A DNA stretch of 20,957 nucleotides from positions 1 to 20,957 of the IMG/VR virus record IMGVR_UViG_3300045135_001738. One strand, written 5' to 3'. This document shows positions 1,075-15,213 of this stretch, in pieces. Each line of letters opens with the position of its first letter. Positions within the stretch are counted from its first letter, which is position 1. The translations under genes and the position numbers were made by a program. Under the pieces are notes generated by a model, which was given only the letters and a program-made list of their open reading frames with translations, did not search any database and was not told the origin of the DNA. The stretch is from a virus.

Positions 1075-1160
1075 GATGTTCTCCCACTAGGAATCTATAC
1101 GATCAAGCGGGAGAAGCAAGAATAAATTACTTTACTTCCGGTATAATGTAGGACGCACTA
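1063..1160 (-). repeat. 10-bp inverted repeat bracketing the gap between two late genes
   Basis: TAGTGCGTCC at 1063-1072 and GGACGCACTA at 1151-1160 are perfect reverse complements, 78 bases apart. On the transcribed strand the upstream arm begins at the TAG stop of the 97-aa gene and the downstream arm overlaps the ATG of the 65-aa gene. The repeat could form a start-masking stem opened by terminating ribosomes, or could be a local duplication. No gene fills the 83 bases between. Confidence 0.55.
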
Positions 1161-1451
1161 GGACTTTTTGGGTTTCTTTTTCGCCGCTGGCTTGCGCTTC
1201 ACGGTTTTCTTAACCCACGCTTCGTTTTCGGGAGTGCTCGGGTCGTCCGCGATGAACTGGCCTTTTTCGTCCCTTGCGCGGACTTCTTCTTCGACGACAG
1301 TGCTATCGCTACCGCTTGTTTTTGCGGATACCCCTCCGACCGCAGCTTTCTGATGTTTTTGCTCACGGTCTTTGAGCTTGTCCCTTTCTTGAGAGGCACG
1401 GTTTTGCTCCTTCTGAATCTCCGCCATCTTGGCGCGAACACTGCTAGTCAT
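1158..1451 (-). CDS. Small charged phage protein, outer frame of a nested gene pair (97 aa)
   Basis: The start overlaps the portal stop as TAATG, with GGAG 7 bases upstream. The N-terminal third is a charged helix (KMAEIQKEQNRASQERDKLKDRE). The C-terminal half, VRARDEKGQFIADDPSTPENEAWV followed by a Lys/Pro-rich tail, matches a pattern I recall from small proteins of marine phages (RDxKGRFxADDPSTPxxNEA). A second gene with its own Shine-Dalgarno lies fully inside it in another frame (1199-1399). Function is unknown. Confidence 0.65.
   Translation of the reverse strand: MTSSVRAKMAEIQKEQNRASQERDKLKDREQKHQKAAVGGVSAKTSGSDSTVVEEEVRARDEKGQFIADDPSTPENEAWVKKTVKRKPAAKKKPKKS
1199..1399 (-). CDS. Nested out-of-frame small basic protein with GTG start (66 aa)
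   Basis: This gene lies entirely inside the 97-aa gene in a different frame. It starts at GTG 1399 with AAGGAG exactly 7 bases upstream, one of the better ribosome sites in the window. The product begins VPLKKGTSSKTVSKNIRKLR and continues SEGYPQKQAVAIALSSKKKSAQ, then a basic tail. The pattern KKGxSxKTxSxNIxxLxxxGxPQKQAVAIAL is, from memory, a widespread family of small basic phage and bacterial proteins, and it begins right at the GTG. A chance alternative frame would not be expected to show both a family signature and a matching ribosome site. The role of the family is unknown; a DNA- or head-associated role is only a guess. Confidence 0.7.
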   Translation of the reverse strand: MPLKKGTSSKTVSKNIRKLRSEGYPQKQAVAIALSSKKKSAQGTKKASSSRTTRALPKTKRGLRKP

Positions 1452-3889
1452 TACTGAGCTCCCTTCATTCTCGCGTTAAGAGCGGCAATGTCGCGCTGCG
1501 TCTGAATGCGATCCTCTGCAACTCTCGTTTTGTCCGCCAAGGCTTCCTCTTGCAGACGTAGGCGCTCCTGCGCCATCCGCGCATCATTGCGCTCTTGCTC
1601 TATATCCAGCTGCTGACGAGCCTCAAACTCTTGCGCCTTACGCTGCATGTCTGCTGCTTTCAGTTGCAGCTCCTGCTTGCGCAACGTAACCAAAGGATCT
1701 TCAGACTGCTGCTCTTGCTCAACGGCCTGAGCATATTGCTCAGTTAGGTCAGCAATAATCATAGCGGCCTGACGCTGAATGGCTGGCTGCAACATCTGCA
1801 TAGCCTGCTCATTCTGCTGAACCTCAGCGCCAGCCTGCTGCATAATCATCTGAGTAGCCTGCTGCTCTGCCAGCAAGCCAATGTGCTCTTGAATATGCCC
1901 CTGCAACGCTGACAGAGCCTGAGGATTCATCTGCACCACAGGCGTGGACAGCATCGCCAAGTGCGCTTCCATATGCGCCTTGTGGTCCTGCTCAGGGAAC
2001 GCCATCAAAGGCGCACCAGTCAAAGCCATGCTGTTTTCCTTCGCAGGATTCATGGGCATTGGCTGTGGGGGCGGTGGCAAAATGGAATCGATGTTGTTGA
2101 CGCCAAGCGCCTCATACATCTTACGATAAGCCTGATACAGCCCCTGAGGACCGCCGTGAATCTGCGGATTGGATTGCACCAATTGAAGCTGCGTTTGGGC
2201 CAAAGCAATCCGCTGCGCCATCGAAAAGATGTTCGGGTCGCTGACAGGCAGAACATCCACACGGGCATCGAAGTCCTGAACAAAAACCTCAGGGCCGAAC
2301 TCAGTCGATGGCATATACGGATATGCTTGAATCGTCTCAGCAAACACCTTCGACAAAAGCTTGAACTCAATCTTCTGCGAGTAATGAAGGCGCTTGTGAA
2401 TCGCGGACATAACCTTCGTTCCGCGCTCCATGATGGCCATTGTGGTGCCCACAGGCGTCTCACCGCCCATGTCACCAATCTTCATGTCGGCCATAGAAGC
2501 AAAGCGGCGACCAGCGTCTACCAGCGTGCCCAGAAGGTTATACAGCGTCCCTGAAGGCTCCTTAAACGGCAAAGGCATCAACGAGCTGCGAATGTCAGTG
2601 CCAGCCACGTCAATGTCGCGGAACTCGCCCGGCTGAATTGGGTTATCCTCGTCGCGTATACGGGCCCCACGGGCCTTGAAGCCAGCTGGAAGGTTAGACA
2701 GCGTGCCAGCGTCGATAAGCTGCCTCAGGATCGACGTAGATGCTTGTGCGAGGCCACCAATCATATGCGTCAGGCCAAGACCATAAAAGCCAAGGCCGGG
2801 CAGGAATTTGTAATGCACAAAATACTGCTTACGACGCTTCATCGGGTCAGCTTCGTTATAGCTGCGACGGATCGACAAAACCTGACCGCTGTCAGCAATC
2901 AAGGTAACGATGTAAGGCAGCTTCAGGCCGCTTGGCTCACCATCATCGCTGACATCCTCAAAGCCGGGCAAATCAAGGTCTGTGTGGATCTCATACAACG
3001 TCAACTCAGACGACATGTTCGACTGATGAACACCCTGAATGTCATCAACAGCTTCAGTGATTTGCTGGTTCTGAAAGTCGCCAGTGCCCTCAGTCGGTAA
3101 GTCTACATCTAAGTAAAACCCTGCCAACTGAAGCTTGCGGACTTCATTCGAGTCCATCTTAATCACATGCGTAATGCGAGGTGCTGACACCAAGTCAGTC
3201 GCGCCATAGGGCACCACCAAGTCTTCAGCGTGAACAAACTTGCTTACCGCACGGCCCTTCAGTGGGTCAAAGTAAACCTTCTTGAACGTCGAACCCACAA
3301 CCGGGAGATAAAACAGCATCTGATCCAGCTCAGGATCATACTCTTCCATCTCGTAGGTAATCATGTAGTTCATGTAGTCTTTGACGCGCTCAGCTTGCTT
3401 TACAAGCATCTCACTCTGCGCGCCCAAAACCTGCGTGCGCACAGGGCCAGTGGCGGGCAGCATCTCACGATACGCTTGCGCCTGAAACTGCGTGACGCTC
3501 TCGGCAAGCAACGGGTGAATAACCCCAGAAGAACCCTCAAACGGCTCTGTGCGGTCTTCATACTTCATCCCAAGGAACTCTAGGCCCTTGCGATACGTAT
3601 CCTCCCAATCCTCGCGCGAGGAAAAGTCGTCATCAATGTCGCCAAGCAAGTCAGAAGAGATTTTGCCTAAGTCAGAGTCTTCCATGACCTCTGCCAAGTT
3701 TCCGTCAAACGGAACCTCTGCAGGCATTTCTTCATCCATATACTCGCCAACAATGGCAGAGCCATCATCCATCTCGTAAACGCCGGGATTAGCCTCAAGA
3801 TCGACAATATCAACGCTGGCCTCCTCAACGGGAACCATGGGGATTACCTCCCCAAGACCGCCAGCGCCCATATCTCTTTCTACTGCCAT
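1451..3889 (-). CDS. Portal protein
   Basis: An 812-residue protein between the large terminase and the scaffold, where a portal belongs. The first 90 residues are acidic. A core follows with features typical of podovirus-like portals: SGVIHPLLAESVTQFQAQAY near 120-140, the pair YMNYMITYEMEEYDPELDQML, then FLPGLGFYGLGLTHMIG, LTN-like dome segments with RQLIDAGTLSNLPAG, and ETPVGTTMAIMERG. The last 170 residues are a Gln-, Met- and Ala-rich coiled coil, the expected barrel or internal extension. It would form the dodecameric DNA entry ring of the prohead and dock the terminase. The ATG is preceded by AAAGG at an 8-base spacing. It ends in a TAATG overlap with the next gene. Confidence 0.88.
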   Translation of the reverse strand: MAVERDMGAGGLGEVIPMVPVEEASVDIVDLEANPGVYEMDDGSAIVGEYMDEEMPAEVPFDGNLAEVMEDSDLGKISSDLLGDIDDDFSSREDWEDTYRKGLEFLGMKYEDRTEPFEGSSGVIHPLLAESVTQFQAQAYREMLPATGPVRTQVLGAQSEMLVKQAERVKDYMNYMITYEMEEYDPELDQMLFYLPVVGSTFKKVYFDPLKGRAVSKFVHAEDLVVPYGATDLVSAPRITHVIKMDSNEVRKLQLAGFYLDVDLPTEGTGDFQNQQITEAVDDIQGVHQSNMSSELTLYEIHTDLDLPGFEDVSDDGEPSGLKLPYIVTLIADSGQVLSIRRSYNEADPMKRRKQYFVHYKFLPGLGFYGLGLTHMIGGLAQASTSILRQLIDAGTLSNLPAGFKARGARIRDEDNPIQPGEFRDIDVAGTDIRSSLMPLPFKEPSGTLYNLLGTLVDAGRRFASMADMKIGDMGGETPVGTTMAIMERGTKVMSAIHKRLHYSQKIEFKLLSKVFAETIQAYPYMPSTEFGPEVFVQDFDARVDVLPVSDPNIFSMAQRIALAQTQLQLVQSNPQIHGGPQGLYQAYRKMYEALGVNNIDSILPPPPQPMPMNPAKENSMALTGAPLMAFPEQDHKAHMEAHLAMLSTPVVQMNPQALSALQGHIQEHIGLLAEQQATQMIMQQAGAEVQQNEQAMQMLQPAIQRQAAMIIADLTEQYAQAVEQEQQSEDPLVTLRKQELQLKAADMQRKAQEFEARQQLDIEQERNDARMAQERLRLQEEALADKTRVAEDRIQTQRDIAALNARMKGAQ

Positions 3890-5048: not shown

Positions 5049-6527
5049 CTAATAGTAAGAACGCTTCCTGCGGCTAAAGTAAGCGTCTTCATCATCATAA
5101 TCAGTCGGAGTGGTAATAAAACCACCCTGCCTAAAGCGCAGTATAGCCTGAGTCATGGAATCCGCCAAGTCATCATGTTCGCCGTTAGGAAAAGCCGCAC
5201 ACTCCTCCATAACCTCGTCAGCAAACTGAGTCTCAGGAGCCCAAACCATGCCGCTCTCAAAAACAGGCGCACAAGCATGCATACGAGTAAACTTATCCGC
5301 ACCACGACCCGGAGTAAAAGGTGTCACAGGAATACCCATGCGCCGCAACTCCTGCGTCAAAGGCATCCCAGAACCCTTTTGCTCAATCAAAATCATGTCA
5401 GGATCATATTCCTTATATAAATCCTGAGCAGCGGCCTTGAGTTCAGGAAACTCCCAACGCCCCCTAACCGCATCCAGCAAGATAATATGATCCTCACCAG
5501 TCTGCTCATGGTGAAAAATACCCCAAGTCGTGATCGCGCTAAAGTCAGCCCTGTCACTCTTCGAAAACGCCGTGTCATAACTCTGAATGATGTAGCTACA
5601 AGGCGGTGGACTGTCCTTCTCCCAGACATTCCACCACTCACGCTTGATAATCGCACCCTCTTCAGCTGTCGGATTCTGCATATACTGGGCATTCCACTTG
5701 CCCACAGGAATCGACGCCTTAACACTCTCCAACTCTTCCAGCGACCAATACTCAGGCCACAAAGGCTTGCCACTCGGCATAATCGCAGGAAACTCAACAA
5801 CCTCCCACTTGTCAGCGCCACGGTCACTCTGCTTAGCCAAAACCTTCGCCGTAAGATCACGAATGCTCCAACGCGTCATCACAATGATAATCGCGCCGCC
5901 GGGCTGTAAACGCTGACGAGGACCAGAAGTATACCACTCGTAAATGTTGTCTAACGCCGTGACACTCAGCGCATCCTGTTCCGATACAGGATCGTCAATA
6001 ATAGCCAAGTCAGCGCCGCGACCAGCCAAGGCACCACCAACACCAACAGCATAATACTCCCCGCCGCCATTCGTAGACCACCTCCCACTCGCTTTCGCAT
6101 CAGTCGCCAAGTTAACATTCGGAAAAACATCACGAAAATCATCAGAATCAATGAGATTCTTTACCTTACGACCAAAACCTACCGCCAACTCAGCCGTGTG
6201 AGTCGCCTGAATAATCTTCAACTCAGGACGACGACCCATCAACCATGTCGGAAATAAATAAGACGCAAACTCAGACTTCGTATGACGAGGAGGCATGTTC
6301 ACAATCAAACGCTTCAACTTGCCATCAGCAACAGCCTGCAACTTCTCAGCGTAAATCTTGTGATGGCGACCCTCAATAAACTGAGGCCAAACATGCTTCA
6401 CAAAACTCATGAAGTTCTGCTGCTTCTCAGTCCTGTCATCTAAAGTCTTAAGCCGCTCCAACATAGGAGCGACCTTCGCTAACTCATCGTCAGTCAGATA
6501 CTTAGTAAAATCACTAAGATCATTCAT
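5049..6527 (-). CDS. terL: Terminase large subunit (ATPase and nuclease)
   Basis: A 492-residue DNA-packaging motor protein. The Walker-A-like loop is PPRHTKSE at 79-86, the phage variant lacking the classical glycines. Walker B is DLAIIDD at 173-179, and the coupling motif IIIVMTRWS is at 213-221. The RNase-H-like nuclease domain follows with acidic residues in the expected order: D318 (QSYDTAFSKSD), E382 (MILIEQKGSG) and D452/D453 (HDDLADSMTQA). All catalytic positions look intact and the length is normal. It would bind the portal, pump DNA and cut the concatemer. It starts one base after the stop of the 947-aa gene, with only a weak ribosome site, so coupling is likely. Its usual partner, the small subunit, is 6.5 kb away at 12998-13525. 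Confidence 0.95.
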   Translation of the reverse strand: MNDLSDFTKYLTDDELAKVAPMLERLKTLDDRTEKQQNFMSFVKHVWPQFIEGRHHKIYAEKLQAVADGKLKRLIVNMPPRHTKSEFASYLFPTWLMGRRPELKIIQATHTAELAVGFGRKVKNLIDSDDFRDVFPNVNLATDAKASGRWSTNGGGEYYAVGVGGALAGRGADLAIIDDPVSEQDALSVTALDNIYEWYTSGPRQRLQPGGAIIIVMTRWSIRDLTAKVLAKQSDRGADKWEVVEFPAIMPSGKPLWPEYWSLEELESVKASIPVGKWNAQYMQNPTAEEGAIIKREWWNVWEKDSPPPCSYIIQSYDTAFSKSDRADFSAITTWGIFHHEQTGEDHIILLDAVRGRWEFPELKAAAQDLYKEYDPDMILIEQKGSGMPLTQELRRMGIPVTPFTPGRGADKFTRMHACAPVFESGMVWAPETQFADEVMEECAAFPNGEHDDLADSMTQAILRFRQGGFITTPTDYDDEDAYFSRRKRSYY

Positions 6528-6528
6528 C

Positions 6529-9372
6529 TCAACCAGCCAAAGACTTCAAAAAACTATCCGCAGCACGGTTCAAACCAACAGCACCGCCAGCACGCATCCG
6601 CAACGGCTGGTCCAAAGGCGCAATCGTCGGAGCACCGCCAGTAATCCGGGCCAAAACATCCTCAAACGTCTCAACAGGACGAACAGGAATGTTAATCGCA
6701 CCAACACCATCAGTCGTTGTCGATGTAGCGTCACCAGACACATCGTCAGCACCAGCAGACGTGCTGCCAATCGGAACACAAGTACCCGTCGCAGGGTCAC
6801 GAATATAACCCTCGGGGCAACCGTCCTGAGCACCAACCTGATCACCGCCAAAGTCAGAGATGCCATAATCACCCATGCCCTGACCAGACTTATAACCGTC
6901 CAACGCAGCCTGAGCAGCGTCAGAGCGGCTCTTCGCAAGCGTATCAGGCGTAATCAAACCATACGTCAAACCACTCAAAATGCCGCCAAAAATAGTCTCA
7001 GCAGTATTCGGCTCAGGGTCCAAGTTCTGCATCGCAGTCTGAACCTGAGAAATCACGTCATTCGTAGTCGTAGACTGCTGTTGAGCCAAAGACTGAGGAT
7101 TATACTGCGCACGATCCTGATTAATCGCACTGTTCGGATCAGTCTCAGAAGTCATCGATGGCGCAGAACTCACCGCCTGACGACCAGACGCAATCGCAGC
7201 GTCTACCTGAGCCTGATCTTGAGACGGCGCCGCAGGAGCCGCAGCTGGAGCCACACCCTGAGCAGATACACTCGGACCAGCCAAACCAGAAACCTCAGAT
7301 GGACTCAAACCAAACTCAGAAGCAATAGACGCAATCTGACCACCACTCAACGGACCCATGTTCTCAACAGTGTCCGCAATCGCCTGAGCCGCAGCAGCCT
7401 GAGCCAAACCACGGTCAATGCCAGACGAAATAGAAGGCGCCGTAGTCGAAGGAGCAGCAGGCGCAGCAACCGAAACAGGCGTCGTGTCCTGATCCAAATT
7501 CGCAACGCTACTGCTAATGTTCGGATCTATGCTAACACTCTTGCCCTGCTTATTCGCCTCTCTGTCAACTATCGACTGAACATCAGTCATGGACAAACCA
7601 CTCTTGTTCGCAATATTCGCAATCTCCTGCTCAGAAATCGATACAACCGAACCACTCTTGTTGACAGTACCGCGAATCGAAGTAATCGCCTCATCAATGC
7701 TCTGCTGAGTGGCACGACCCTGCGTAGAAGCCGCAGGCGAAACAGTCGAACTCGGAGCAGTCGCCGCTGCAGTCGAAGGCGTGACATTAGACAAAGCCAT
7801 CATGTCCTGAGCTATGTCCACAGCAGCAGGAGAAATAGACGGACTTAAACTCGGAGCAACCGAAACAGGCTGAGACATCGCAACATCCTCAGCCGTAATC
7901 CCCTGATTCGTCGCCATCTGAGCAGCAGCAGCCTCATTCGACGCAACATTGCTGCCAGTCCCGCGCGAAATATCACCAATCGCAGAAACAATCCCAGACG
8001 CCTGCGCAGGGCTAACACCGCCACGAGACGCATTCGTAGAAACACTGCCAGTCCCACCCGGAACACCAACAGTAGATGTCCGACCACTCGCAACGTCAGA
8101 AGCCGTAACACCCATGCCCGGTAAACCCGGACCAAAATTCCCACTCGCAATCGAACCACGATCCATCGCAGCGTCAACAGCAGCCTGTGTCGCAGCAGAA
8201 TTCGCCGCCTGAGATGCACTCAAACCCATCATGTCCTGCGCCATGTCAGACGCAATAGACTGACTCATAGACATCGCAGAAGGACTCACATCAACACTCG
8301 GAGCAGAAGGACTAGAAACACTCTGAGAAGAAACACTCGGAGCAGTCATCCCAAACGAAACCTCAGGATCAAACGTGTCCAACATGCTAGTAGGAGCAGA
8401 CGGATTCATAGCCGTGCTCAACTGATCAACAACAGACATGCTCGGCTGAGAAACACTCGTCTGGGCACTCGGACCACTGCCCCAACCACCCAAACCACCC
8501 AACGCCGCAGCAGTCTCAGCCGCAGCCTGTGCACCATAACCACCCAAACCAGACTGACCTAAACCAACATTCGCAGCAGTCGCAGCAGCCTCAGCTACAG
8601 CATCCGCAACCGCAGCAGCCGCAGGAGAACCATAAACATCGCCAAATGCATCAAAACCCGGACCATCACCGCCGCCGCCAAAATCACCCGGACCACCACC
8701 ACCAAATGCACCGCCAACCTCACCCGGACCAACCTCGCCAGTGCCTACACCACCGCCAAATGCCTCGCCAGCACCTAAACCAAAACCACCCTCAGCAGCC
8801 GCATTCTCAGGATACGAAGGAATCCCGCGAGGACCCGGACCACCCCAGCCACCACGAGACTTCAAAAGACCAGCCTCCTCAGGCGTAATATACGCCAACA
8901 TGTGATCCTGACCCTTAATCACAGCACGACGAGGCGCCTCAACATCACCACCAGCTAAACCACCACGCTTCATGCCAACAACAGGACGCTGCATCGGAGA
9001 CTGCATACGACCCTGCATCGAAACAGGACCCCGCATCGGCATCTGACCAGTAAATACATCCATCTGACCCATGCTATCCGCAGAAACAGGCGCAGAAAAA
9101 CGACCCAATGTCGTCTCCAAAAAATCACCAAAACGACGACGACGAGGAGCCCCAACACTCATGCCACCAAAATCAGAACCACTACCCCACTGAGGAGGCG
9201 CCTGAATCGGAGCACCACCCATCGGAGGCGCAGGAGGCATCGGCTGACCCATCCCCATCGGAGGCATCGGCTGACCCATGGGCGCCATACCCGGCATCGG
9301 CGCCATGCCACCCATCGGGGCAGGCATACCCGGCATCGGAGGAGCATTAAATCCAGTCTTAACTGCAGGCAT
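6529..9372 (-). CDS. Large low-complexity protein, probably virion-associated (947 aa)
   Basis: Residues 1-60 are a Met/Pro/Gly repeat (PMPGMAPMGQPMPPMGMGQP). At 155-175 comes GQDHMLAYITPEEAGLLKSR, a motif I recall from marine phage proteins. Residues 176-250 are Gly-rich, then about 500 residues are rich in Ala, Ser, Thr and Pro. Two repeat types stand out: IAQDMMxLS-like at 373-385 and 519-528, and I-A-x-I-A-x4-G-L-S-x3-V at 583-603 and 680-697. A two-cysteine loop, GCPEGYIRDPATGTCVPIG at 851-869, resembles CPxGYxxDPxTxxCVP modules of phage structural proteins. The end is LRMRAGGAVGLNRAADSFLK. ATG 9372 has TTGGAG 9 bases upstream. It lies directly before the terminase, an unusual place for a tail or internal protein. 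Function unknown. Confidence 0.75.
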   Translation of the reverse strand: MPAVKTGFNAPPMPGMPAPMGGMAPMPGMAPMGQPMPPMGMGQPMPPAPPMGGAPIQAPPQWGSGSDFGGMSVGAPRRRRFGDFLETTLGRFSAPVSADSMGQMDVFTGQMPMRGPVSMQGRMQSPMQRPVVGMKRGGLAGGDVEAPRRAVIKGQDHMLAYITPEEAGLLKSRGGWGGPGPRGIPSYPENAAAEGGFGLGAGEAFGGGVGTGEVGPGEVGGAFGGGGPGDFGGGGDGPGFDAFGDVYGSPAAAAVADAVAEAAATAANVGLGQSGLGGYGAQAAAETAAALGGLGGWGSGPSAQTSVSQPSMSVVDQLSTAMNPSAPTSMLDTFDPEVSFGMTAPSVSSQSVSSPSAPSVDVSPSAMSMSQSIASDMAQDMMGLSASQAANSAATQAAVDAAMDRGSIASGNFGPGLPGMGVTASDVASGRTSTVGVPGGTGSVSTNASRGGVSPAQASGIVSAIGDISRGTGSNVASNEAAAAQMATNQGITAEDVAMSQPVSVAPSLSPSISPAAVDIAQDMMALSNVTPSTAAATAPSSTVSPAASTQGRATQQSIDEAITSIRGTVNKSGSVVSISEQEIANIANKSGLSMTDVQSIVDREANKQGKSVSIDPNISSSVANLDQDTTPVSVAAPAAPSTTAPSISSGIDRGLAQAAAAQAIADTVENMGPLSGGQIASIASEFGLSPSEVSGLAGPSVSAQGVAPAAAPAAPSQDQAQVDAAIASGRQAVSSAPSMTSETDPNSAINQDRAQYNPQSLAQQQSTTTNDVISQVQTAMQNLDPEPNTAETIFGGILSGLTYGLITPDTLAKSRSDAAQAALDGYKSGQGMGDYGISDFGGDQVGAQDGCPEGYIRDPATGTCVPIGSTSAGADDVSGDATSTTTDGVGAINIPVRPVETFEDVLARITGGAPTIAPLDQPLRMRAGGAVGLNRAADSFLKSLAG

Positions 9373-9942: not shown

Positions 9943-11037
9943 TTAGCGCCGTTGGTCCAGATCATGCATGCGATCCTGCCACCATTCGAAATCCAGATCA
10001 TCCAGCCCGGCCCAAACGCTGGGCATGCCGCGCCGATTCTCGGGGCGCAAGCGGGCGCCGCTGGTGCGTTCGGTCCAGCTGGTGCGGACCTCATAGCGGG
10101 CAAGGTCGGTGCCATCGCCATATGAGTGGCCGTTGGCCTGCTGGGTGTGCGTGATCACGGCGGCGTCACCCACGCGGGCGCGTATTTCAGATATGCGCCC
10201 CCGGATGTTCTGTTCGCTGGTGCCTGTGGCGTCCATCAGGTCGCGGACTGTGGCACCACCGGGGCGGCGGCAAAGGGTGTAAATCACGCCCACGCGGGCG
10301 CCGCGCCGAAACGGCTGCTCGGGCGTCTCGCGCAATTGTTCGCGTTCGCCGGACTCGATACGCTCGGCGGTGGTCCAGCTGACTAGGTTCAACAGGAACT
10401 TCACCCATGCGATGATCTTGATGGGCTCAATGGTGCCTGCGGCTTGGCGAAACTCAATGGTGCCGCGCTGCCACGTCTGCAAGTTGATGGTGCTGAATTT
10501 GCCGCGCGTGGCGCTCTGCAGCTGGGCCAGCGTCTCGGCGCCTTCCAGCGCGCCAATGCTCACGGGCATGCAATAGCGGTTCTGGGTGCGGCTGGCCGGG
10601 TGCATGCGGTCAATGGTGGCCTGCTGGTAGGTGTAACGATACATGATATCTTTCACCGCGATAGCGTCCAGCGGGTCAAGGTATAGGCCATCGCCCGTGA
10701 TGTAGCGGCCAGTGCGCTCCTTGTGGGCGATGCTTTCGCCTGTGAAGGCGTTGGGGCGGTGGGCGGCGTCCAGCGGCGCGTTGCTAATGTGAACGTGCAA
10801 GCCACAAGCGCGGTTGATGGTGCAGCCTGCGCTTTCCAGCGCGGCGCAGACGTTGTGGATGTATTCCCATGCAACTTGGCCAGCGGCCAGCGGGGGCAGA
10901 ACGATTTCTGCGTCAACGCTGGGGGTGCCATCGGGTTTGACCTCGCACCCTCGTATGCCGCGCGATGCCAAGGCGCGTGTCACGGCGGGGATGCTGGCGC
11001 CGTGGGTTTCGATTTCTATGCCAAATGTGTGTGTCAT
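9943..11037 (-). CDS. Amidoligase (COOH-NH2 ligase, Amidoligase_2 type) fused to a winged-helix-like domain
   Basis: A 364-residue enzyme. The ligase domain (about 4-220) shows the family signatures: FGIEIETHG at 5-13, DAEIVLPPL at 42-50, GLHVHIS at 79-85 and TIEFRQAAGTIEP at 193-205. Families of this glutamine-synthetase/gamma-glutamylcysteine-ligase-like fold join a carboxylate to an amine with ATP. After it, residues 243-298 (ARVGVIYTLCRRPGGATVRD then LMDATGTSEQNIRGRISEIR) look like a winged helix, which is not a standard part of the ligase. I start at ATG 11037, which has AAGGA 8 bases upstream; ATG 11043 is too close to that site and the longer reading to 11109 runs through the promoter. 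The gene is monocistronic, with its own promoter, palindromic operator and terminator, and is GC-rich compared with the late genes. The substrate is unknown. A gamma-glutamylcyclotransferase-like gene at 14770 has a matching operator. Confidence 0.88.
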   Translation of the reverse strand: MTHTFGIEIETHGASIPAVTRALASRGIRGCEVKPDGTPSVDAEIVLPPLAAGQVAWEYIHNVCAALESAGCTINRACGLHVHISNAPLDAAHRPNAFTGESIAHKERTGRYITGDGLYLDPLDAIAVKDIMYRYTYQQATIDRMHPASRTQNRYCMPVSIGALEGAETLAQLQSATRGKFSTINLQTWQRGTIEFRQAAGTIEPIKIIAWVKFLLNLVSWTTAERIESGEREQLRETPEQPFRRGARVGVIYTLCRRPGGATVRDLMDATGTSEQNIRGRISEIRARVGDAAVITHTQQANGHSYGDGTDLARYEVRTSWTERTSGARLRPENRRGMPSVWAGLDDLDFEWWQDRMHDLDQRR

Positions 11038-11064
11038 GCTCATATTCCTTTTTTTGCATGTGTG

Positions 11065-11080
11065 GCCGCAAGCCTGCGGC
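11065..11080 (-). other. Hairpin at the 5' end of the amidoligase mRNA
   Basis: GCCGCA (11065-11070) and TGCGGC (11075-11080) are perfect inverted repeats with a four-base loop, just downstream of the predicted -10 (11089-11094). It would sit at or very near the mRNA start and may stabilise the transcript or act as an operator. Confidence 0.5.
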
Positions 11081-11088
11081 ATAGGTGT

Positions 11089-11117
11089 AGAATATGGGAT
11101 AAATCCCACGTGGGCAA
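11089..11117 (-). promoter_or_regulatory. Amidoligase promoter
   Basis: On the minus strand TTGCCC (11117-11112), a 17-base spacer and TATTCT (11094-11089) precede the gene by about 50 bases. The spacer contains the palindrome TGGGATAAATCCCA next to the -10. Confidence 0.65.
11095..11108. promoter_or_regulatory. Palindromic operator TGGGATAAATCCCA
   Basis: TGGGAT and ATCCCA are a perfect inverted repeat around AA. It abuts the amidoligase -10 box on its upstream side. The same palindrome with TA in the middle (TGGGATATATCCCA, 14726-14739) overlaps the -10 of the cyclotransferase-like gene. A repressor bound here would block polymerase at both. Confidence 0.65.
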
Positions 11118-14707: not shown

Positions 14708-14736
14708 TTGACTGGGCCAATTCTGTGGGATATATC
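14708..14736 (+). promoter_or_regulatory. Promoter of the cyclotransferase-like gene
   Basis: TTGACT (14708-14713), a 17-base spacer and TATATC (14731-14736). The -10 lies inside the palindrome TGGGATATATCCCA. The leader contains TCTAGCGAAGGAG, like the other accessory leaders. Confidence 0.72.
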
Positions 14737-14739
14737 CCA
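14726..14739. promoter_or_regulatory. Palindromic operator TGGGATATATCCCA
   Basis: A perfect 14-bp palindrome over the -10 of this promoter. It differs from the amidoligase site at 11095-11108 by a single base in the central dinucleotide. Confidence 0.65.
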
Positions 14740-14769
14740 TCGATCTTATCTAGCGAAGGAGTGCTTTTG

Positions 14770-15213
14770 ATGTCTGATGATCGTATGCTTTACATGGGCT
14801 ATGGGATGAATATGAACCGTGAGGCGATGTCTGGTCGTTGTCCTGCGGCGAAGTGTTTGGGTGGTTTTTATTTGCCGGGTTATCGTTTGTTGATGCGTGG
14901 TGTTGCGGATTTTCGCCGTGACGCTGACACTGTGTTGCCTGTGGCGTTGTGGGAGATCACGCCTGCTTGTTTAGAGGCGTTGGATCGTTTGGAGGGTTAT
15001 CCGACTTTGTATGGTCGGTATCGTATGAATGGCCGTTGGATTATTTACGACATGAACGGCAACAAGAACATTTTGCGTGAGCCGAGCCGCCATTACTACG
15101 AGATGATCAAAGAGGGTTATGAGTGGCTGGGTTTGGATACGTGGCATTTGAAGAACGCTGTGTATGAGGCGCGCCAATATGATCCGAGCGTTGATTCTGT
15201 GGTTGCATCCTAG
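14770..15213 (+). CDS. Gamma-glutamylcyclotransferase-like (AIG2/GGCT fold) protein
   Basis: A 147-residue protein. The start at ATG 14770 (MSDDRMLYMGYGMNMNREAM) has AAGGAG 8 bases upstream, while the reading to 14725 crosses the promoter. Residues 8-14 (YMGYGMN) match the YGxN substrate loop of the family. P36-L63 carries the G-x-L/Y-LPGYRLLM...VALWEIT core strands, and LDRLEGYP at 71-78 holds the catalytic-type glutamate E75. The length is usual. Members release 5-oxoproline from gamma-glutamyl amines or peptides, and BtrG in butirosin synthesis removes a protecting gamma-glutamyl group. The gene is alone between its own promoter and terminator, and its operator matches that of the amidoligase, so it may undo or finish what that ligase makes. 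The actual substrate is unknown. Confidence 0.85.
   Translation: MSDDRMLYMGYGMNMNREAMSGRCPAAKCLGGFYLPGYRLLMRGVADFRRDADTVLPVALWEITPACLEALDRLEGYPTLYGRYRMNGRWIIYDMNGNKNILREPSRHYYEMIKEGYEWLGLDTWHLKNAVYEARQYDPSVDSVVAS

Follow-up and report, generated by a model that had tools for sequence, protein, structure and literature searches.

Nested genes are classic in phages, gene E within gene D of phiX174 and Rz1 within Rz of lambda being the standard examples. Wholly nested overlaps make up about 30% of annotated viral overlaps (PMC7017920). The stretch of viral DNA analysed here, 20,957 nucleotides long and referred to below as the window, contains a reading frame of 66 codons lying within one of 97 codons, and this raises the question of whether both are genes and, if so, how two conserved proteins came to occupy the same DNA. 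Comparison with related loci makes it likely that two genuine small genes share the DNA behind the portal gene, that the inner one, a member of PHROG 2423, is the older and was overprinted, that a motif was subsequently inserted, and that the complete nesting in the window arose by loss of the inner C-terminus.

The locus behind the portal gene

The initial annotation described a 66-aa frame with a GTG start wholly contained in a 97-aa frame of different phase, and both the coordinates and the two ribosome sites that it gave (AAGGAG-N7-GTG and GGAG-N7-ATG) are correct, with both frames on the minus strand (Table 1). The inner start is offset by 52 nt from the outer start, which places the inner gene in the +1 frame. 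The inner frame is open farther upstream to a GTG at 1441, corresponding to an 80-aa form; positions 1-49 of PHROG 2423 align with residues 1-49 of the 66-aa form, so that homology starts at residue 1 of the latter. From N- to C-terminus the outer protein consists of a lineage-specific N-terminus (TSSVRAKM...), a linker over the inner core, the RARDEKGQFIADDPSTPENEAWV motif, and a K-rich tail. From their positions in the window, the conserved parts of the two proteins adjoin without overlapping.

Table 1. Features of the gene pair and its surroundings in the window.
Feature	Position	Strand	Basis or remark
Portal (head-to-tail connector) gene, 812 aa	1451..3889	(-)	PHROG 1216 portal, E 3e-44
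Portal stop TAA	1453-1451	(-)	Overlaps outer-gene ATG as TAATG, read directly in sequence
Outer gene, 97 aa, ATG start	1158..1451	(-)	ORF translation and motif relatives
GGAG ribosome site of outer gene, 7 nt before ATG	1459..1462	(-)	Sequence
Inner gene, 66 aa, GTG start, PHROG 2423 member	1199..1399	(-)	ORF and profile/tblastn matches
AAGGAG ribosome site of inner gene, 7 nt before GTG	1407..1412	(-)	Sequence
PHROG 2423 core of inner protein, residues 1-36	about 1292..1399	(-)	Coincides with a poorly conserved linker of the outer protein
DDPSTP motif of outer protein, residues 57-82	about 1206..1283	(-)	Inner protein is a basic linker/tail here
TGA ending inner gene early	1199..1201	(-)	Alignment of window, L002 and L003; aligned L002 codon is TCA

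All 30 inner starts that were checked (17 ATG, 9 TTG, and 4 GTG) have a Shine-Dalgarno-like match of 4-6 nt situated 4-12 nt from the start, mostly GGAG at 6-7 nt upstream. When every ATG, GTG, and TTG codon in the region is examined in the same way, 52 of 248 pass, including the 30 inner starts, and the rate for the rest is about 10%. In the sequences of the start check, the outer gene begins either within the portal stop or immediately after it. Ribosomes completing the portal would presumably restart at the overlapping TAATG to make the 97-aa protein, an arrangement suggestive of translational coupling, and the internal AAGGAG-N7-GTG would initiate independently to give the 66-aa PHROG 2423 protein in the next frame. 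We infer from these signals that both frames are translated.

Several other features of the window deserve mention. Between 17576 and 20479 (+), several successive small genes end in an AELTGGxDE tail and overlap the start of the next gene; the DNA that they share, ACAGGAGGCAAGGATGAGTGA with slight variation, has the look of a repeated cassette for ribosome binding and coupling, the tail being its translation. PHROG matches indicate an amidoligase-like gene at 9943-11109 (-) and a gamma-glutamyl cyclotransferase-like gene at 14725-15213 (+). A 479-aa ORF at 6409-7848 (+) lies antisense to a low-complexity 947-aa ORF at 6529-9372 (-) and is probably an artefact of composition.

Relatives of the two proteins and their arrangements

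Searched separately, the two proteins have independent relatives, and the family resemblance that had been noted for both translations holds, but the conserved parts fall on different bases. The inner protein matches the PHROG 2423 profile over almost all of its length (E 2.1e-17, positions 1-49 of 52), a full-length relative (L156) matches it with E 1.4e-16, and tblastn matched 176 phage records. Eighteen core residues are invariant among the 17 clade and outgroup sequences from which the set was derived (P2, L3, G6, S8, T11, S13, N15, K18, L19, E22, G23, P25, K27, Q28, A29, A31, I32, and L34), and the window translation contains all 18. In the outer protein, the segment RARDEKGxFxxDDPSTPENEAW also occurs in Roseobacter and Vibrio phage proteins (best E 7e-6) and, at weak E-values, in cyanophage sequences, and the motif matched hundreds of IMG/VR stretches. 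When the outer N-terminal half of the close relative L002 was compared by tblastn with 50,697 phage records, nothing matched, as would be expected if the gene is young. Neither protein has a significant Pfam or NCBIfam family, and in a non-exhaustive literature search we found no paper that names PHROG 2423 and none that describes the gene pair.

PHROG 2423 genes lie near head genes in some other phages. In the other phages examined the gene stands alone, whereas in the clade of the window it is overprinted. Members of this clade also differ from the profile in that most add a C-terminal GGxVxxFSxIARPQRFxGIF, a segment that stand-alone relatives of the same portal group have too. Two unannotated frames were seen in isolates: a stand-alone PHROG 2423 core in Prochlorococcus phage MED4-184 (L237, 2501-2617), and an open frame with the DDPSTP motif that overlaps the portal 3' end in Synechococcus phage Syn5 (L242, 2438-2695), so that in an unrelated isolate, too, the portal is followed by a protein with this motif.

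The inner core of the relative L003 is modelled confidently as a two-helix hairpin (block pLDDT 84-96, residues 1-40), and the full-length L003 model gave no significant match with Foldseek against the PDB. A sequence search of the PDB with the inner protein found nothing, and its matches to helix-turn-helix profiles are weak (birA_repr_reg, E 0.04; HTH_36, E 0.27). For the outer protein, AlphaFold gave a low-confidence model (mean pLDDT 65, pTM 0.24). Both proteins are basic (pI 9.8 and 12.0) and the genes near the pair encode portal, GroES, and terminase; with these properties and neighbours, and no hydrophobic segment on inspection, an identity as spanins was rejected. As a guess, these two small basic proteins could work in the head or packaging module, and the inner protein may possibly be a nucleic-acid-binding helix hairpin.

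Related loci were fetched from IMG/VR with the portal, outer, and inner proteins each as query. Small profiles, run against three frames of the post-portal DNA of every locus, served to locate four segments: the N-terminus of the outer protein (M), the core of PHROG 2423 (C), the DDPSTP motif (D), and the inner C-terminal GGxVSRFSxIARPQRFxGIF (T). Five architectures were found: C or CT alone, M+C+T, M+C+D+T, M+D+T without the core, and M+D only. The window is of the M+C+D+T type, but both it and L212 have lost T. The same arrangement follows the portal in about 50 other IMG/VR contigs, of which, counting by hand from the locus list, ~32 have M+C+D and ~20 have M+C without D. The closest cultured-phage portals are only about 50% identical, and the overlapped pair is absent from all six cultured relatives whose post-portal region was read; in one isolate, DSL-LC04, with a portal 48% identical, a lone PHROG 2423-like gene begins at the portal end.

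In a portal tree of 72 rows (a quick IQ-TREE search, with the root among long-branched outgroups), the outer gene marks a well-supported clade, with the stand-alone C and CT forms branching outside it. Within this clade the motif D arises and several lineages lack the core; loci with only M and D group as a single clade (support 99). An automatic count gives four changes of M, although three of the rows scored as lacking M carry an outer ORF that falls below the profile threshold, and a single gain of M is probably the simplest reading of the tree. The tree suggests that the PHROG 2423 gene is the older and once stood alone behind the portal, that an ORF starting at the portal stop then overprinted it, that the DDPSTP motif would later have entered the K-rich linker of the inner protein as an in-phase insertion, and that some lineages subsequently lost the core. 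The inner gene of the window would have dropped its C-terminal motif and thereby become fully nested. The initial annotation's suggestion that one gene may have overprinted the other is supported by comparison, with the 97-aa gene as the newcomer and the inner gene as a member of an older and widespread family.

In a DNA alignment, the motif block is seen to have been inserted in phase into the inner linker, between the core and the C-terminal motif. Compared with L126, L026 has 26 aa more in each of the two proteins, and, taking the core as 36 aa and the C-terminal motif as 20 aa, the inner linker measures 41-50 aa where the motif block is present and 7-30 aa where it is absent. With this in-phase insertion, each conserved segment sits where the other protein is a tolerant linker. 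The loss of the core in other lineages likewise left the outer frame intact, together with that of the inner C-terminus. On balance we lean towards the view that overlapping genes can be built cassette-like, through the gain or loss, within the linker of one protein, of in-phase blocks needed by the other, such that two conserved proteins become interleaved by stages that are preserved on one tree; such gain and loss of blocks would be possible because each protein keeps a tolerant, basic, and probably disordered linker. In loci without the core, such as L204, L194, and L065, the inner C-terminal motif persists with a pN/pS of about 0.32, although the inner frame is often stopped in the motif segment; possible ATGs for its translation occur in the GATGAC of DDP.

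Constraint in the two frames and alternative readings

Pairwise changes were classed by their effect in each frame, in the manner of OLGenie but in simplified form, and codons were bootstrapped; the pairs are non-independent through shared ancestry, and transition bias lies outside the model. Over the core segment the inner pNN/pNS is 0.39 (0.25-0.61) and the outer pNN/pSN is 1.17 (0.83-1.72), with no amino-acid constraint detectable in the outer protein by this test. Over the motif segment the outer ratio is 0.15 (0.06-0.27) and the inner ratio 0.42 (0.21-0.77), the latter weakening to 0.54 (0.34-1.05) when the segment is drawn more tightly. The substitutions show what looks like functional segregation, with the inner protein constrained over the core and the outer protein over the motif, and purifying selection is not strong in both frames over any one segment. 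In a control clade without the inner gene the inner-frame ratio is 0.90 (0.61-1.58), and stops occur in 11 of 11 sequences. Inner frames broken in this way, a pattern that the initial annotation had set against its own reading, do occur among homologous loci, but all such loci lack the entire inner core, and it is this loss that accounts for the break. Independent relatives of both proteins, together with two frames that are kept and bear signs of selection, support the existence of two genes and of overprinting on comparative grounds.

Could the inner gene be the only functional one, with the outer frame open by chance and either untranslated or unneeded? The lack of detectable constraint on outer amino acids over the core is what this reading predicts, and the codon make-up of the core does leave the outer frame open in a few percent of cases: random codon resampling for the same inner protein gave an open outer frame in 2-20% of draws (median 6%). 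However, none of the 27 distinct sequences has a stop in either frame over the core, whereas the 62 other, stand-alone cores have 3.5 stops on average in the outer frame and only seven are open, four of which carry the outer gene; on this stop-codon control a chance ORF was rejected. The outer motif, moreover, remains constrained in clades without the inner core (0.19 and 0.43), it is present in unrelated phages, and the outer start is tied to the portal stop, all of which make an inner-only reading very unlikely. With the outer frame open in all these sequences and its amino acids under no detectable constraint, an open frame seems to be needed over the core more than any particular sequence, and here the outer protein may be only a spacer required to stay open. 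A single fused gene, in which a frameshift, whether a sequencing error or programmed, links the segments, has in its favour that the core, the motif, and the C-terminal motif follow one another in alternating frames, and that the C-terminal motif persists without an obvious start in core-less loci. A sequencing or assembly frameshift is rejected because about 50 contigs share the same frames, and the separate start and ribosome sites of the two genes speak against programmed frameshifting, which we consider unlikely; passage from the outer to the inner frame would require a +1 shift, and both proteins exist in stand-alone form. We regard fusion as highly improbable.

There remains the state of the inner gene in the window itself, where the full nesting that drew attention to this locus is real but derived: in most relatives the inner gene, with its C-terminal motif, extends beyond the end of the outer gene, and in the window it is truncated. 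The segment coding for GGxVSRFSxIARPQRFxGIF is missing and the inner frame meets a TGA in place of the TCA of L002, a change that is silent in the outer frame (GTC/GTG, Val). This could mean that the inner ORF of the window is a decaying remnant with a product no longer useful, the working gene being that of its relatives. In the motif segment, changes that are silent in the outer frame and alter the inner protein amount to 9.0 of 16.7 sites between the window and L003, and 4.5 of 16.7 between L002 and L003, and inner-frame constraint in this part of the window looks relaxed. Against decay, the window retains every invariant core residue and the AAGGAG-N7 site, and when its core is compared with those of L003 and L002, substitutions still fall preferentially where they leave the inner protein unchanged (0.47 and 0.37 at NS sites; 0.09-0.19 at NN and SN sites). 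The C-terminal motif is also missing from some stand-alone relatives. We consider decay rather unlikely, and a truncated inner gene that may still work the better reading.

Comparison with known overlapping genes

In the two-component Rz/Rz1 spanins of phage lambda and its relatives, a small gene is embedded in another in a shifted frame (PMC6139136, PMC5295617). The portal-linked pair resembles these in lying on the same strand in shifted frames, in occurring in both embedded and overlapped architectures, and in having an inner gene that is also found alone; it differs in following the portal rather than lysis genes. Furthermore, no spanin family in the Rz/Rz1 survey mixed embedded with other architectures (PMC6139136), whereas the inner family here is nested, partly overlapping, and stand-alone on a single tree. 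Small overlapped phage genes tend to escape annotation because gene callers are biased against them, as noted for spanins (PMC6139136). With gene E of phiX174 (PMC8227390) the pair shares complete internal overlap in different frames, but it belongs to a large tailed dsDNA phage, the nesting appears to be derived, and its relatives show intermediate stages.

Functional segregation has been described in HIV-1 (PMC9119678; Fernandes et al. 2016, as cited in PMC8227390), and the likeness is that in each stretch one protein is constrained and the other tolerates change. In HIV-1, however, segregation was demonstrated by experiments in one virus, while here it is read from substitution patterns, and the segregated blocks of the present pair seem to have come or gone as in-phase insertions or deletions. 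What appears to be new is that one gene pair can be found stand-alone, overprinted, with an inserted motif, fully nested, and with its core lost, all on one tree.

Overlapping genes are usually known only in their completed form, and the route by which two proteins under constraint come to occupy the same DNA has mostly to be deduced. Because several stages coexist within one group of phages, both the order of events and the division of constraint between the two frames are here directly testable.
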